Source of the DNA: Ischnura elegans | Taxonomy: Eukaryota; Arthropoda; Insecta; Odonata; Coenagrionidae | DNA length: 64,000 nt | Reading direction: 5' to 3' | NCBI RefSeq assembly: GCF_921293095.1 | Contig: NC_060249.1 | Span: 73,791,907-73,855,906, forward strand | Shown: piece by piece, positions 30,787 through 60,162 of the stretch | Position numbering within the stretch: the first letter of the stretch is position 1 | Layout: every line of letters starts with the position of its first letter | The notes under the pieces: generated by a model | Seen by the model: only the letters and a program-made list of their open reading frames with translations | Told to the model about the DNA's origin: nothing | The model's database searches: none | Translations under genes and position numbers: made by a program

Positions 30787-31599
30787 AACACAAGTGCACA
30801 ATGTGATATTTCCCGGTCGTACCCCGCTGCTATTGACGGCCGGGACGGCGACGATCCACATTCTTTACTTTCAATGTCCGCGCCGAAAGCGCGTTTGAAA
30901 ATGCGGTACCATTGAGTCCAATACTCACCCCAAACAGCTACTTTACAGTAAGTATGGGATTTCCAGTTAGTTAGTATGTTTGTTTTTTGGGGTGCGTCGA
31001 CAGCAAAGGTCATTTTGCACCACAACCGTCCTTACGTAAAACAATTTAGGTGTTTAATGGAACATTATAAAGGGTATTAATATAAAAAATAAAAAAATAT
31101 GCTCAATCTGTTTAAATTAATTTACAGTTTATTAAAAACGCTAATTTCCTTTAATAAGGCAATTACTCGAGACAAACGCTCCGGACAACCACCGAGGGTA
31201 TGATTTAAGGGGCCGTTAAGGGCCTAATTCTTTCGATGGTTTTTCGGTTTGTTTATTATGTTTAGATAATAACTGCGCACCAATCCCAACTCATCACGCT
31301 CCTCTACACTCTATTCTAATAAACCTAATAATCATCCACGTTTTATTCTCCGAGTGATGAGATGCTTATTTTTTACTTTTTAATGCATTTTATACTGTTT
31401 TCGGAAAAAGCGTGTTTTCTTAATTTTTTTAAATTATATTTTACTTAACCCTTTCTGTCAGATATGCAGATATAGTAGGATTCTAAGATAATGCCCTCAG
31501 AGTCGATCAAAAAGATACCTGTTTGATACATGCTCAAGCAATCTAAGCCTAAGACTTATCCTACGAACTCCCAGGCTAATTCATCAAAAAGCTGCGTAA
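30787..31599. other. intergenic DNA, nothing recognised
   Basis: The minus frame 30666-31025 overlaps the MITE end and has no recognisable domain. Confidence 0.35.
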
Positions 31600-31619
31600 C
31601 TCTATCTGTTTGGCGAACA

Positions 31620-32050
31620 TTGTTCACAGATTTTAACGAATCCTGCAGCTTTCATTTGCATTTTATTTAGTTCATGGATCAATTTTTGTCGCGCCGGATC
31701 CTATATGCCAGCAGCCTATTCAAGGTGCGGACTGACGGGTGTGAAATAGCACCTCTCATTCAAAAAGGGTTTGATTCTTTTCCGCCAAATGGTGGCTGTG
31801 AATGCCCCTCGGGCTTTCCACCGGGTTTGGGGACTTCATTTCTGCCGACGTTTCGATGAAATACTTTTCCATCGTCCTCAGGGCTCGGCATCCACCAGTC
31901 CTGAAGAAGATGGAAAAGTATTTCACCGACACGTCGGCTGAAATGGAGTCCCTAACCCGGTGGAAAGCCCAAGAGATATTCACTGTCACCTCTGATTTAC
32001 TTTCTCCTCATAAAACCTTCCTAAAACACACGAGACGAATCCTGGAGTTA
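31620..32050 (-). mobile_element. LINE reverse-transcriptase fragment split by a fold-back
   Basis: On the minus strand, 31987-32045 encodes TPGFVSCVLGRFYEEKVNQR. After the 226-bp fold-back C is skipped, 31760-31625 continues as HLE-stop-AAGI-stop-DPARQKL and NKMQMKAAGFVKI. The same order is uninterrupted in the related fragment at 59.5-59.7 kb (GRFSNEKVKERCYSALVRPH, LEYAASIRDP, KAAQFVKNC). The segment is the RT 'LVRPxLEYAA...W.P...IxxxExxQRxAARF' region. Stops make it a pseudogene. Confidence 0.7.
31761..31986 (-). mobile_element. fold-back insertion C, nested in a LINE
   Basis: The inverted arms run from about 31798 to 31890 and 31900 to 31986, both containing GGGCTTTCCACCGGGTT and GCCGACG. 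The tail of about 37 bp lies outside the left arm. The duplication CACCTCTCATT (31750-31760) / CACCTCTGATT (31987-31997) matches at 10 of 11. The paralogous LINE at 59616 carries the site once (CACCTCTCCTT), an independent empty site. The left-arm core, read on the minus strand, is CTGAGGA, a helix of about 8 bp with one bulge, then GAAACGTCGG. The arm sequence is shared with copy D. Confidence 0.8.
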
Positions 32051-37700: not shown

Positions 37701-37983
37701 TTTTCCACCTAATAGCAACTATTGTTGGGGCTTAAATTAAAGCTACTCACCTGATATGGGATGCCAGTCGAGGAAAATTATTTCTCTGAGGAGTTTTCGT
37801 ATAACATGGACAATTACGGGAGACTATGTTAAGGTAAGACGTTGGCTATTCCGCGGTTATCTACATACAATAAAACCCACTTCCGACTACTGAATGACTG
37901 ATTCATACAAATGTTTGGGGTGAACGAGACGAGATATGACAAAAAGTCATGGAATCTATATCTTAAAACAATTTTCAGTGGGA

Positions 37984-38155
37984 ATATAATCGGGTGTTTT
38001 CCCGGCGTAGGTGTTGGATGAAAAATTCTCGTGCTTTCCACCGGGTAATAAAATCCTTCTCCGCCGACGTTTCGATGTCTGTCCCCTGATGGACATCGAA
38101 ACGTCGGCGGAGAAGGATTTTATTACCCGGTGGAAAGCCCGAGAACTTTTCATCC
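37984..38155 (-). mobile_element. fold-back insertion D
   Basis: A near-perfect hairpin has arms at about 38016-38084 and 38090-38155. A one-sided tail of about 32 bp (37984-38015) lies on the left. The direct repeats AATTTTCAGTGGGA (37970-37983) and AATTTTCAGTGGGGA (38156-38170) flank it. At the hairpin centre both strands read CTGATGG, a four-base helix, then GAAACGTCGG (plus strand 38086-38107). The host site is itself palindromic: GACAAAAAGTCATGGAATC near 37938 is inverted at 38172-38190. Confidence 0.8.
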
Positions 38156-38207
38156 AATTTTCAGTGGGGATCGATTCCATGACTTTTTGTCGTTTAAACC
38201 CTAGGAA

Positions 38208-42316: not shown

Positions 42317-42549
42317 TGAGGGGGTGAGAAGACAAGGAGTACAAGAGATTTTTCCTAAACAGAGTTAGGTTGATAGAAGAACTTGGTTGCCGAGGGATTC
42401 GATTGCGTCTCTGTTCTGTGCTGACATCGAGTTGAGTACAAAACGCACTACTAAATATTGATCTCCTTTGTTTTCTTTACCTAATTTTCGCACCTAATTC
42501 TGTTTAGAAAAAAGAAATCACTTGTACCCCTGGGCTTCTCGCCCACTCA
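42317..42549. mobile_element. Tc1/mariner-type MITE, copy 1
   Basis: Imperfect inverted ends of about 55 bp: TGAGGGGGTGAGAAGACAAG and, as complement, TGAGTGGGCGAGAAGCCCAG, each continuing through AAACAGA-TTAGGT. The element is flanked by TA on both sides (42315-42316 and 42550-42551), the target of this superfamily. A second copy lies at 59905. There is no transposase frame. Confidence 0.75.
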
Positions 42550-54699: not shown

Positions 54700-56010
54700 C
54701 AGAGACAATATAATAATAATAATAATAAATTCGTTTATTTCGTGGGCCTGTGGCCCATGAGAAAACCATTGCACAACTTTCACATGTTAAGCATGATATT
54801 ACATTCCCAAAAGAAAAAAAAATAAAAAGAAACACATAAGATACACTTGTTGCGGACAGCCGCCAACTTACAAACAATTAGGCAAAAACAATACCAACGA
54901 AAGGAGAAACAGTTTCCAAAATGGAGATACTTTAGTTTCCCCTCCTTGGTGACATCATATTCATAAGGAAAAACAAAAAATGAAAAGAAATACAAAACAT
55001 TTAATCGTTGTAAACCGCCGACAGCACACAGACAATACGGCAAAACAACAGCAACACAAGGGAAAACATCATACTGCGGAGTAACTGACCAACCATCGCA
55101 AGAAATCAAGGCGATAATTTAATATAACAATAGTGTCAGACAAACAGTATTAAAAAAACAAAAAAAGTAAATAACAACTTAGTATGACACTCAAATTTAA
55201 CATAATTTTACACTCAATTTTCTGCAACCATATGTTAGAGCCATTCGATTTAACACCGTTCTAATTTTACTTCAATCAGTTTTAGACAGACAGCATTTTA
55301 GGGTTATTTATTAAGATATCGTACACCTGGGTTTTGAAGGCATGTATGGATTTAGTATTTCTAATTTTGGATGGTAGGGAGTTCCATACTCTAGAGGCGA
55401 TTATTGTGAAGGATTTAGTTACGTGAAGTGTGCTATGTTGAGGGATGTGAAGATCTACGGAGTGATTCCTAGTGGGTACTGCATGTAGATCTTTTTTCCA
55501 GGTAAATCTAGCAGCTAGGTAAACGGGATTACGAGTGGATAAAATTTTATAGGCAAGCAGGATCACATGGTATAAACGACGCTGTTTTAGTTTCAGCCAA
55601 CGTAATCGAACGTAAGTATCAGATATCCTATCCCATTTGTTTAGGTCATAAATGTAGCGCATTGAAGAGTTCATTGTTACTTGCAATTTGTTGTTACTTT
55701 CTTCGCAGAGATTAGTAAACAGAGAGGAGCAGTAGTCAAGGTGAGGAAAAATTAGTGACTGAACCAAGGTGGTTCGAATTTTGGGCGGAACTATGTTCTT
55801 GGTTCTATACAATTGATGTAGTATGCTCAGACATTTCTGTTTTGTGACATGGACTTGTTTTTTCCACTTGAGTTCCTTATCAAATATTATACCAAGGTTT
55901 TTAACCGTTTCTTCGTACGGTATTACACGATTTTCTAATTGAATTTTTCCAAGAGCGGATTCATCAATTTGAGTAATAAGATGTCTAGGACCAAATATAA
56001 TACATACTCA
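54700..56010 (-). mobile_element. LINE, 5'-truncated, with intact RT C-terminal frame (family 3)
   Basis: The minus-strand frame is open from about 56003 to 55282, well over 200 codons. IFGPRHLITQIDESALGKIQ is followed by VKNLGIIFDKELKWKKQV (the 'LGxxxDxxLxWxxH' block), LVQSLIFPHLDYCSSLF ('SLxxPxxDYC'), LRWLKLKQRRLYHVILLAYK, DLHIPQHSTLHVTKSF and ASRVWNSLPSKIRNTKS, ending at a stop. Palm-domain motifs and endonuclease are missing because of 5' truncation. A 3' UTR of about 550 bp leads to a (TTA)n tail (plus-strand TAATAATAAT at 54710-54728). The lack of stops suggests a fairly recent insertion. Jockey/CR1-like; the exact clade is open. Confidence 0.8.
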
Positions 56011-56599: not shown

Positions 56600-58344
56600 G
56601 GTTACTTCGCTTTATTATTTCTTCCATGCCCAGACACTATCTAAAATATGTAAGAGTGGAAATTTCATAAATTTTCAATCTCAAGAAGTGGCCCATGTGT
56701 AATAACTGAATGTAAATTATGCCTGGCGGCTTAATTCAGTACGTTGACAACTTGGCGTGCAGCCATAAATTCGCTTCGGCAGGTGATCGGGTGGTATACG
56801 GGATGCCCGTACTAGTAATTAGTTTCAAGATTTCTCGCATTGGGAAAACATAAATTTCATGAAATAAGCGAAATATTTCTTTTGTATAGTGATGAAGTCT
56901 ATCGTGATCCTTGTTTTTTGTCGAAATGGACGCCTTATTATGACTTGGTCTCCAAAAGCGGTTGTTCTCGATATCCGCCTAATTTAAAAAAAGTTTTTTT
57001 TCAATTTTTGGCCAAGAATTATCTCTATGTTTCTTCCAAGCTATTCTATGGCAGACATTATGAAATATAACTTTGTCGCAAAACGGATCGTCAAAGGAGA
57101 GGTGCACCTAGACCAGGGGCCTTCTCAGCTTACGCATCGCGGGCAATCTCCATCAGGGGTCACAAAAGCTTTTGCGAGGGCAGTCTGAAGTCTCCTAAGT
57201 CTTACCCTGGTTACGCGCCTATTTACCACACTTCTTTATCACAATAGAAAAAATATGCAGTTAGATAATGTAACTAACCAGGAGACAATTACTTAAAACA
57301 TAAGCGAAAGTGATCTACAGTGGCATATGTTCGCCAGTTTCTACATGATAATCGCATTTATCGATAGTTCCGTAGTGACAGCATGTAGTAAATAGACTTA
57401 TCCATAGCCAATTTAAAGTTAAAGTAATGCAACTCATCCATCTTAGTTTTTGTTGATATTCATGCCAAAAGAATTGCCGATTCAAAGCGTTCTATTTTTT
57501 AAAATACTTATGAGCGAATATAATGCATACCTATCACTCTTGGCTATGGCGTTTCATGAAACAAACAACAAAATGAATGTCTTATTCGTGAATGCCCCCA
57601 ATGCCAAAAGGGTTTAAAGGGTTATTAGTGAGAGAACACAATTTTTCCCTCCCACGAGCTGTTTTTCATGACACTTGCTACTTCCGTCAAAAACCATTTT
57701 CGACTAATCAATTTTATCAAAACCAATACCCATTTTTAAAAAAGGCAAATACGGTGTTAAACCGGCAGCCTTATTACGTCACAAACTTAACCAGTGAGCG
57801 TGATCTTTTCCGAATTTCGCCCATGGGTGACTGTATTCACGCAGAAGATGTGGTGATTTGGTGAAAAATCTGTTGTAAAGGCGATCCAGCTAAACCATAA
57901 ATTAAATATCGAATTCTGGTGAGATGAAACAACTAAATGAATTCATTTCAATCAAAAGTAGGGAATTTTCCTCCCGAGTGCATAGTATTCATTCAATCAC
58001 ACAAATGGCAACGAAGGGTTCAAGAACCAATATCTTCGCGAATAAGGGATTATTGGAAACATTGAGCCTTAGAATCGATAAGAAACATCAACATTCCACT
58101 AAAAATGCCGCCTCAATAGGTGAGTGGCGGGGGGTGATAGGATACCATCCATTACAAAATAAAAACAAAATTTTCAAACGAAGTTCCGCTAAGCATTTAT
58201 TAAAGTCCTTCATTGTTCGGGGAAAAAACGAATTCCCATACCGATGCTCGTAAAAAATATCACACTTAATTTATCGTTTCTGTCGGACCTGGAAATATAA
58301 TGGGGTTCTAATATGATGTTCCCCATGTCTCTCTGAAAGATATC
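56600..58344. other. 1.7 kb with unrecognised frames
   Basis: Plus frames 57592-57864 (90 codons) and 57924-58253 (109 codons) have no recognisable domain. A weak terminal-repeat relic may lie at 57100-57222 (ACCAGGGG / CCCTGGTTACGCGCC). Confidence 0.3.
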
Positions 58345-58356
58345 TGTCCTCAATTG
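58345..58356. repeat. target-site duplication, left, of the fold-back/Hsp90 chimera
   Basis: TGTCCTCAATTG, matching TGTCCTCCATTG at 59382-59393 in 11 of 12 positions. Confidence 0.7.
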
Positions 58357-58507
58357 ATGAAGAATCTGAGCTTTTCCCGGTGAATAGCATGGATGAAAGC
58401 TTCTTGGGTTTCCAACCGGGTCAAAGTCTGCATGGTGTAGGCAGACGTTTCGTTGGGGGACTTTCCCAACATCATCTGCCCTGAGGATATTGGGAAAGTC
58501 CCCAAAC
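58357..58507 (-). mobile_element. fold-back insertion G (truncated), 3' half of the chimera
   Basis: From the left: a tail of about 35 bp with TTTTCCCGG and GGATGAAA words shared with copy D, then an arm with TTTCCAACCGGGT and GCAGACGTTTCG. A hairpin follows (TTGGGGGACTTTCCCAA with TTGGGAAAGTCCCC). The right arm stops at CCCCAAAC near 58507, where Hsp90 sequence begins. On the minus strand the core at 58440-58480 is GGCAGATGATG, helix, CGAAACGTCTGCC. CAGATGA differs from CTGATGA by one base, and GGCAGA pairs with TCTGCC as an enclosing helix. Confidence 0.75.
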
Positions 58508-59381
58508 ATAGTCCTTCATCCTACCAACATAGTCCTTCAATGCACAGGCCTCATCCCCTGATGCGGAAGTGTGATATCGGAGGAGCTCACTCAGTTTCTC
58601 GCGGTTCTGGCAGTCCTCATGAATACCCAACTTCAAATTCTTGCCAAACTGCTCGTAGCACTCGCGATAATTCTCTTTGTCCTCTGCAAGCTCTTCAAAT
58701 AGCTCCAAGCAATTCTTCACCAAGCTCTTCCTGATGACCTTAAGAATTTTGTTCTGCTGCAGCATTTCACGGGAAATGTTAATTGGCAGATCCTCTGAGT
58801 CCACCACACTCTTGATGAAGTTGAGGTACTGCGGAATGAGATCTTCACAAAAGTCCATAATGAAGACCCTCCTCACGTATAGCTTAATGTTGTTCTTCCT
58901 CTTCTTGTTGTCAAACAGATCAAACGGTGCCCTCCTTGGAACGAACAGCAGGGCCCTGAATTCCAATTGCCCTTCCACCGGGAAGTGTTTCACAGCCAAA
59001 TGATCCTCCCAATCATTGGTGAGAGACATAAAATTCGCCACATTCTTCCTGGCTAATGTCATCAGGATTACGAGTCCAAATTGGCTTGGTCATGTTCAAC
59101 TCTTCGTCCTCTGTATACTTCTCCTTGATAGTCTGCTTCTTCTTCCCCTTCTTATCCCCACCTTCTTCCTCGTCATCTTCAACGTCCTATATCTTGGGCT
59201 TCTTATCCTTTTCGTTCTCCTCTTCCTCCTCCTTCTTCTCCTCCTCCTCGTCGTCAGAGACTTCCTTATCACGCTCCTTCTCCACCATCAATTTGATGGG
59301 ACAGCCAATGAACTGAGAATGCTTCTTTACTACATCCTTGATTTTCCTTTCCTCTAAAAATTCTGCTTGATCTTTTTTTTA
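58508..59381 (-). pseudogene. Hsp90 (pseudogene): Hsp90 cDNA fragment (linker and middle domain)
   Basis: Hsp90 is a cytosolic ATP-dependent chaperone. The minus strand encodes, without introns, the end of the N-domain ([20 protein letters not shown]), the acidic linker ([20 protein letters not shown]) and [11 protein letters not shown]. The middle domain follows ([72 protein letters not shown]) as far as [10 protein letters not shown]. This is roughly residues 200-490 of about 720; ATPase and C-terminal dimerisation parts are absent. It is disabled by an in-frame TAG in the linker (near 59190), a 2-base deletion in the codon before SLTNDW (near 59031) and an extra A near 59375. The 3' end joins fold-back G and the 5' end coincides with the target duplication, so it arrived as a reverse transcript. 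Confidence 0.9.
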
Positions 59382-59393
59382 TGTCCTCCATTG
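59382..59393. repeat. target-site duplication, right, of the fold-back/Hsp90 chimera
   Basis: TGTCCTCCATTG, 11 of 12 with 58345-58356, beginning exactly where Hsp90 similarity ends. Confidence 0.7.
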
Positions 59394-59479
59394 CTCAAGC
59401 AGTCTAAGCCAAGCGCACAGGCTCCGTGTATTTACCACCTACCAGCCGCTTAATTCGTGTAATACATTTAGCGCTTCCT

Positions 59480-59740
59480 GTAGGCCACTAGCAGTTTTTG
59501 ACGAATTGCGCAGCTTTCTTTTGTATTTTATTAAGGTCACGGGTTGAATCTTTCTGCGCCGGATCCCTTATGCTCGCTGCATATTCAAGGTGTGGCCGGA
59601 CGAGTGCGGAATAGCACCTCTCCTTTACTTTTTCATTTGAAAATCTTCCCACAACGCGCTTGACGAATCCCAGGTTCTTTAGGGATCTGCCACATATATT
59701 TCTTATATGTGTTCCACACGAATAACGCATCCCTTCAAGT
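59480..59740 (-). mobile_element. LINE RT fragment, paralogue of the one at 31.6-32.05 kb
   Basis: The minus frame reads KNLGFVKRVVGRFSNEKVKE, RCYSALVRPHLEYAASIRDP and LNKIQKKAAQFVKNC. This is the RT thumb-proximal 'LVRPxLEYAAxxWxP...IExxQRxAARFV' block. It lacks the palm motifs. It contains the undivided CACCTCTCCTT site (59616-59626) that is split by fold-back C at 31.76 kb. Confidence 0.75.
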
Positions 59741-59904: not shown

Positions 59905-60162
59905 TGAGGGGATGGGAAGCCAAGGGGTACACGTGATTTTTTTATAAACAGAGTTAGATACAGTTAATTGTTGGAAGAAATATACAAAAACTTGGTTGAC
60001 AAGGGATTCGAGTGAGACTGTTCTGTGCTGACATCGAGTGGAAAATAAAATGCACTATTAAATAAATAATTGGATGTCCTTTGTTTTCTTTACCTGATTT
60101 CTATACCTTATCTGTATAGAAAACAAAAATCACTTTTACACCTTGGCTTCTCACCCACTCTT
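59905..60162. mobile_element. Tc1/mariner-type MITE, copy 2
   Basis: Same family as 42317-42549. It begins TGAGGGGATGGGAAGCCAAG after TA and shares internal words TTCTGTGCTGACATCGAGT and CCTTTGTTTTCTTTACCT. It ends with an inverted terminus around CACTCTTA. The right end has a small indel, so the last base is approximate. Confidence 0.7.

Follow-up and report, generated by a model that had tools for sequence, protein, structure and literature searches.

A stretch of Hsp90 coding sequence on chromosome 4 of Ischnura elegans adjoins the end of a repetitive element, which raises the question whether both parts arrived together and which machinery joined them. The locus is contained in a window of 64,000 nucleotides (C4:73791907-73855906; "the window" denotes this whole stretch). 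In the initial annotation it had been described as a truncated fold-back element fused to an intron-free Hsp90 fragment within one target-site duplication (TSD), attributed to a reverse transcriptase that started at the tail of the element and jumped to Hsp90 mRNA. The coordinates and strands given there are correct to within a few bases. The refined layout (Table 1) comprises a spliced Hsp90 cDNA and the terminal portion of a Penelope-like element (PLE), which have the same sense and both lie within a single 12-bp TSD; their entry into a pre-existing LINE copy in one insertion event is supported.

Table 1. Features of the composite insertion and its target (positions within the window)
Feature	Position	Strand	Basis
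Left flank of the target (old LINE reverse-transcriptase ORF, 3' part)	58200-58344	-	LINE-like frame across the site by eye; joined flanks match 39 other LINE copies
Left TSD copy, TGTCCTCAATTG	58345-58356	.	Sequence; empty-site comparison
PLE end: inverted remnant, pLTR arm and tail; 3' end of the element at 58357	58357-58507	-	88-93% to many genomic copies; tail word
PLE tail word	58359-58381	-	209 + 214 genomic places at ≤1 mismatch; reversed control 0
Head-to-head palindrome: left-arm remnant (58480-58507) versus right arm (58452-58479)	58452-58507	.	82% self-complementary over 56 nt
14-nt repeat at the PLE/Hsp90 joint, copy 1	58505-58518	-	
14-nt repeat, copy 2, 21 nt away, within Hsp90	58526-58539	-	
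Hsp90 cDNA fragment, internal coding part	58512-59378	-	Gene alignment; Pfam HSP90 1.3e-87
Exon-exon joint; 94-bp GT..AG intron here in the gene	58738-58739	-	Gene alignment
2-nt deletion versus the gene (frameshift)	59027-59028	-	Gene alignment
In-frame stop codon in the Hsp90 fragment	59187-59189	-	Gene alignment
Right TSD copy, TGTCCTCCATTG	59382-59393	.	Sequence; empty-site comparison
Right flank of the target (same LINE ORF, upstream part)	59394-59600	-	Frame by eye; LINE-copy matches
Related LINE copy without insertion at the homologous site; gaps of 2 + 3 nt there	31377-31760	-	

Alignment of the Hsp90 part with the Hsp90 gene on chromosome 5 (C5, L031), as had been proposed, bears out the initially noted lack of introns: a 94-bp GT..AG intron is cleanly missing from the insert, i.e., the partner of the element is a copy of a processed RNA, as expected of a template-jump chimera. 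The similarity extends on the minus strand from 59378 to 58512, refining the span of 58508-59381 given before; up to three further bases are ambiguous at the right border, while 58507-58511 form part of the 14-nt repeat at the joint. The fragment is internal to the coding sequence, both ends being cut off, and differs from the gene by 46 substitutions in 867 aligned bases (26 silent, 20 replacement), one 2-nt deletion and one stop. Since the prevalence of silent over replacement changes indicates more constraint than expected of a neutral copy, an older allele or a paralogue since lost may have served as template. A further Hsp90 retrocopy was rejected as the source, since a genome search with the Hsp90 part alone, which detects DNA similarity and could be escaped by a strongly diverged paralogue, yielded no copy besides the C5 gene and the insert (both of the two candidates scored). 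Poly(A) is absent from the composite insert; instead of terminating at an mRNA 3' end with poly(A), as LINE-1-type processed pseudogenes do, Hsp90 ends in coding sequence and is followed by the PLE.

A blind scan of 1.5 kb returned as best duplication candidate exactly the pair TGTCCTCAATTG / TGTCCTCCATTG, the 12-mers by which the composite had been delimited initially. By score alone (9) this pair is weak, as 70 of 590 mismatched controls also reach 9; the TSD is settled by the target, because the joined flanks match other LINE copies whose empty sites hold one 12-mer. With the flanks joined at one duplication copy (364 bp), 39 further LINE copies can be aligned from position 1 to 364, and in 37 the aligned span is exactly 364 bp (40 scored of 7874 candidates); the composite's own locus is matched by the right flank only. 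In each of eight LINE copies read, a single 12-mer (CATTCTCAATTG in seven, TATTCTCAATTG in one) occupies the site, with no gap in the surrounding 75 columns. The empty site sought in the initial annotation is thus available in paralogous form, and by this comparison both parts were inserted together within one TSD, as in template-jump chimeras. The continuation of Hsp90 beyond the duplications, named there as counter-evidence, was also checked: both flanks are LINE and contain no Hsp90.

Both TSD copies of the composite start with TGTCC, whereby G at position 2 and C at position 4 set them apart from all eight empty copies, and the initial T from seven. Since these shared bases are absent from most or all empty copies, the two TSD copies can be regarded as having arisen by duplication of a single local sequence; the deviating C in the right copy is most simply a later change. 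The more distant LINE copy at 31377-31760 of the window is likewise uninterrupted at the site apart from two gaps, of 2 and 3 nt. In this comparison the real left flank scores 92 versus a maximum of 56 in 1000 shuffles; among 2000 segments sampled at random throughout the window, also from the target region, 9 likewise reach 92. Divergence is roughly similar across the parts, amounting to 46/867 for Hsp90 (versus the gene), 5 differences in the PLE arm of 83 (versus the majority of copies) and 1/12 for the TSD.

The repetitive part (58357-58507) matches many genomic copies in the same orientation (88-93%), and its tail word occurs at 423 places (209 + 214) at ≤1 mismatch, versus none for the reversed control. 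Altogether 118 unique tails were examined: 27 from 28 similarity-search loci, which favour a composite-like shape (L026 yielded no tail), 90 from 90 of the 100 listed pattern places, and one second tail (L096). Sequence following the tail is matched upstream with a score of at least 10 for 89 of the 118 tails, compared with 20 of 590 mismatched pairings; the composite, scoring 9, is outside these 89. After six were set aside by hand for doubtful TSD or structure (L057, L081, L084, L096b, L098 and L112), 83 clean insertions remain, with TSDs of 10-16 bp (median 13) and, in 68 of 83, the inverted arm GGATGAAAGC at the left end (within 3 nt, ≤2 mismatches). The left end of the composite lacks this arm, and its bases -4 to -2 are T, G and A, one of three fitting the A-richness usual in the family. 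The PLE tail of the composite adjoins the TSD just as elsewhere in the family, in line with the earlier view that the tail side is the 3' end of the element and the start of synthesis.

Assignment of the family to the Penelope-like elements is supported by several features. At L047, a reverse transcriptase and an endonuclease-like region are enclosed together with pLTR and tail in one TSD, and the ORF matches RVT_1 (6.2e-8, Pfam). Its 120 listed reverse-transcriptase relatives mostly carry RVT_1 and/or PF26215 and include proteins of I. elegans, Hetaerina and Anolis, the top named ones being from I. elegans and Hetaerina; two of the listed relatives (P0141, P0217) carry GIY-YIG (PF01541). The reverse transcriptase is thus of the PLE type, and pLTR with optional tail, inverted pLTR and short TSD are found in the 83 clean insertions. 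The family's own endonuclease-like ORFs give no Pfam match, and a motif GIYRIPCECG..VYIGE is recognizable by eye. Hammerhead ribozymes have been reported from the pLTRs of PLEs, though they are not known to be required of every PLE copy; in the window no Rfam hammerhead match was obtained up to E = 1, and a CUGANGA..GAAAC-like core is visible by eye. The Penelope-like partner suspected initially is supported by the reverse transcriptase and its relatives. The "truncated fold-back" is to be corrected to the pLTR-and-tail end of a PLE with a short inverted remnant.

Several side observations concern the family and the window. Among 39 fold-back copies with both arms scored, variants shared within a copy number 8, whereas 200 shuffles averaged 0.87 and never exceeded 4; since within-copy sharing exceeds that between copies, the arms of one copy tend to come from the same template. 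By eye, from their translation, L096b and L112 seem to extend beyond the tail within the PLE's own frame, so that the tail would be located in the first part of the ORF (MQTLTRLETREAFIHAIHREKLRFF...); the fillers of these two copies, initially taken for foreign, thus appear to belong to the element. Further PLE-like fold-backs are located in the window at 37970-38170 and 31791-31990, the former seemingly flanked by CAATTTTCAGTGGG repeats (by eye). A search of viral contigs for the arm word of a related fold-back gave no match, and the Rfam candidates mir-253 and mir-569 score far below their gathering thresholds in the window. In addition, the window contains two repeat copies, 82-87% alike (42411-42498 and 60018-60111), and a minus-strand ORF of 241 aa (55282-56007) that by eye resembles the end of a LINE reverse transcriptase and has no Pfam match.

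Read from the tail, the cDNA strand passes from PLE antisense through a brief fold-back at the pLTR head into Hsp90 antisense. The inverted remnant deviates from the family majority at 3 of 22 positions. The joint word AACATAGTCCTTCA is present twice, 21 nt apart; both copies read GAC where the present Hsp90 gene has GAA, which fits a template carrying GAC. These features of the joint are compatible with a template switch by a reverse transcriptase. According to the mechanism proposed, the PLE protein would cut the LINE target, and reverse transcription would be primed at the tail site of the PLE sense RNA. The nascent cDNA would copy the pLTR, fold back over ~22-28 nt at the pLTR head and, by way of a short AAC/GTT homology, change over to Hsp90 mRNA that was spliced and in sense orientation. 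Landing at AAC, copying to TCCTTCA, slipping to TGAAGGA 21 nt downstream and copying again would produce the 14-nt repeat with every base templated; alternatively, the repeat could be a product of repair synthesis. After ~870 nt of Hsp90 had been copied, the 3' end of the cDNA would be linked to the opposite side of the cut.

The search for other joints of fold-backs and mRNAs, suggested in the initial annotation, was run among the family tails, with filler classes covering 89 TSD-bearing inserts plus the composite (of 118 tails) and captures detectable up to ~1.5 kb (~0.65-1 kb for L104-L123). In this set the composite is the sole recognized case of a spliced-mRNA filler, no second mRNA capture being found. 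At L099, a filler of 116 nt is identical to DNA ~250 nt beyond the tail; as similarity elsewhere in the genome is ≤89%, a jump to LINE RNA was rejected. At L048, the filler of 73-74 nt is 97% like DNA ~1 kb away, among the nearby DNA compared. Both fillers are joined through short homologies, as judged by eye. L081 was rejected as a chimera because the 11-mer TTTTTTTGGCA abuts the arm on one side and follows the tail on the other (by eye); at L101, a short stretch is partly explained. At L093 on chromosome 4 (C4:102292500-102294500), a 15/15 TSD encloses the ends of two PLE families, the composite's and a second one, with each tail adjoining one TSD copy. The tail word of the second family occurs at 561 places at ≤3 mismatches, and at least 14 outward-facing tail pairs, spaced from a few hundred bases to ~1.4 kb, are found among 100 places listed. 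L093 and these pairs suggest that both cut ends are primed independently. Insertions of the composite's PLE family thus contain a second template in some cases, which is seldom a message.

Of the initially proposed tail-primed jump, the single event, the spliced origin, the tail-side start, the Penelope-type partner and the common sense of Hsp90 and the element are supported by whole-genome evidence; the jump from PLE RNA to Hsp90 mRNA itself is a step that we infer. Overall, a single insertion by the PLE machinery, with a template switch from PLE RNA to Hsp90 mRNA and integration of the joint cDNA, is considered quite probable. Against it count the recognition of just one mRNA capture among 118 tails, the missing inverted arm and poor fit to the A-rich pattern at the left end, the deviations of the inverted remnant, the prevalence of silent changes and the local fillers of L099 and L048. 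Patching by repair is a live rival for the joint, since the fillers of L099 and L048 match nearby DNA, but not for the cDNA nature of the Hsp90 part, the single event or the role of the PLE in it. In its specific form, microhomology end joining would have inserted a separate Hsp90 cDNA, the product of any reverse transcriptase, into a break that the PLE had opened, without a jump of the enzyme. The short homologies at the two fillers agree with this, as does the repeat at the joint, short templated repeats being typical of such repair. It is nevertheless rather unlikely: a free Hsp90 cDNA is needed, the sense of Hsp90 fits one continuous cDNA, and the traced fillers are 116 and 73-74 nt long and probably local, whereas the Hsp90 filler comprises 867 nt, is spliced and has its gene on another chromosome.

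A spliced, same-sense insert in one TSD would also result from 5' transduction, i.e., from a PLE residing in an Hsp90 exon or retrocopy whose spliced Hsp90-PLE transcript was copied whole. No corresponding locus was found, as the Hsp90 gene (L031) continues past that place without a PLE and the genome search by DNA similarity revealed no second Hsp90 copy; moreover, the 14-nt repeat is not explained, making transduction very unlikely. LINEs are abundant, with 7874 first-look candidates for one fragment, and make such chimeras (PMC2104539, PMC13174262), so that a LINE reverse transcriptase might have primed and jumped, the PLE RNA being just one more template; but the insert starts at the PLE tail, its TSD is within the range of the PLE family, and neither a LINE 3' end nor poly(A) is contained in it, which leaves this explanation highly improbable. 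Two separate insertions touching by chance were rejected and retain practically no probability: nesting does occur, the target itself being a TE copy, but a single TSD surrounds both parts, the paralogous empty sites hold one 12-mer, and neither a TSD of either part alone nor an outer PLE arm beyond Hsp90 is seen at the locus.

Chimeras of LINEs with U6 are known. Template-jump chimeras of LINEs with mRNAs and other RNAs are established (L1, PMC13174262; Magnaporthe WEIRD/MGL, PMC2104539) and resemble the composite in that two RNAs are joined in one insertion inside one TSD; they differ in that here the driver would be a PLE with internal start at its tail, and poly(A) is absent. The anatomy of the present family agrees with that outlined for PLEs in PMC3846280 and PMC11167929, i.e., pLTR, inverted pLTR, optional tail and short TSD. 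According to the former, Penelopes of the rotifer Adineta vaga, which with an inverted pLTR and a 31-bp tail are similar to the family studied here, moved host genes, and PLE terminal repeats and TSD enclose host sequence as in the composite; however, introns were kept and the gene lies between pLTRs, whereas here a spliced, partial message is joined to one PLE end. In the latter, the tail of PAc (Anolis Poseidon) corresponds to internal start sites of reverse transcription and both target strands are extended, similar to the present family, but this was observed in vitro and the excerpted text contains no host mRNA chimera. Thus, LINE/mRNA chimeras and intron-keeping capture by PLEs are known, while a PLE joined to a spliced host mRNA was not met among the open-licence publications listed in the literature searches.

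The composite suggests that PLEs, a poorly understood class, might copy ordinary host messages into DNA. Whether PLE reverse transcription starting from the tail of the sense RNA can switch mid-synthesis to spliced host mRNA, such that PLEs can seed intronless host copies besides the intron-keeping ones reported from rotifers, is judged to be evenly balanced. A PLE/mRNA joint with clear borders represents a natural record of template polarity, start of synthesis and targets of switching. If the proposed reading is true, a single strand that crosses both the PLE and a spliced message would speak for sense rather than antisense RNA of the PLE as template, a point that PMC3846280 leaves undecided, and LINEs would not have to be the source of the intronless gene copies found in genomes rich in PLEs.
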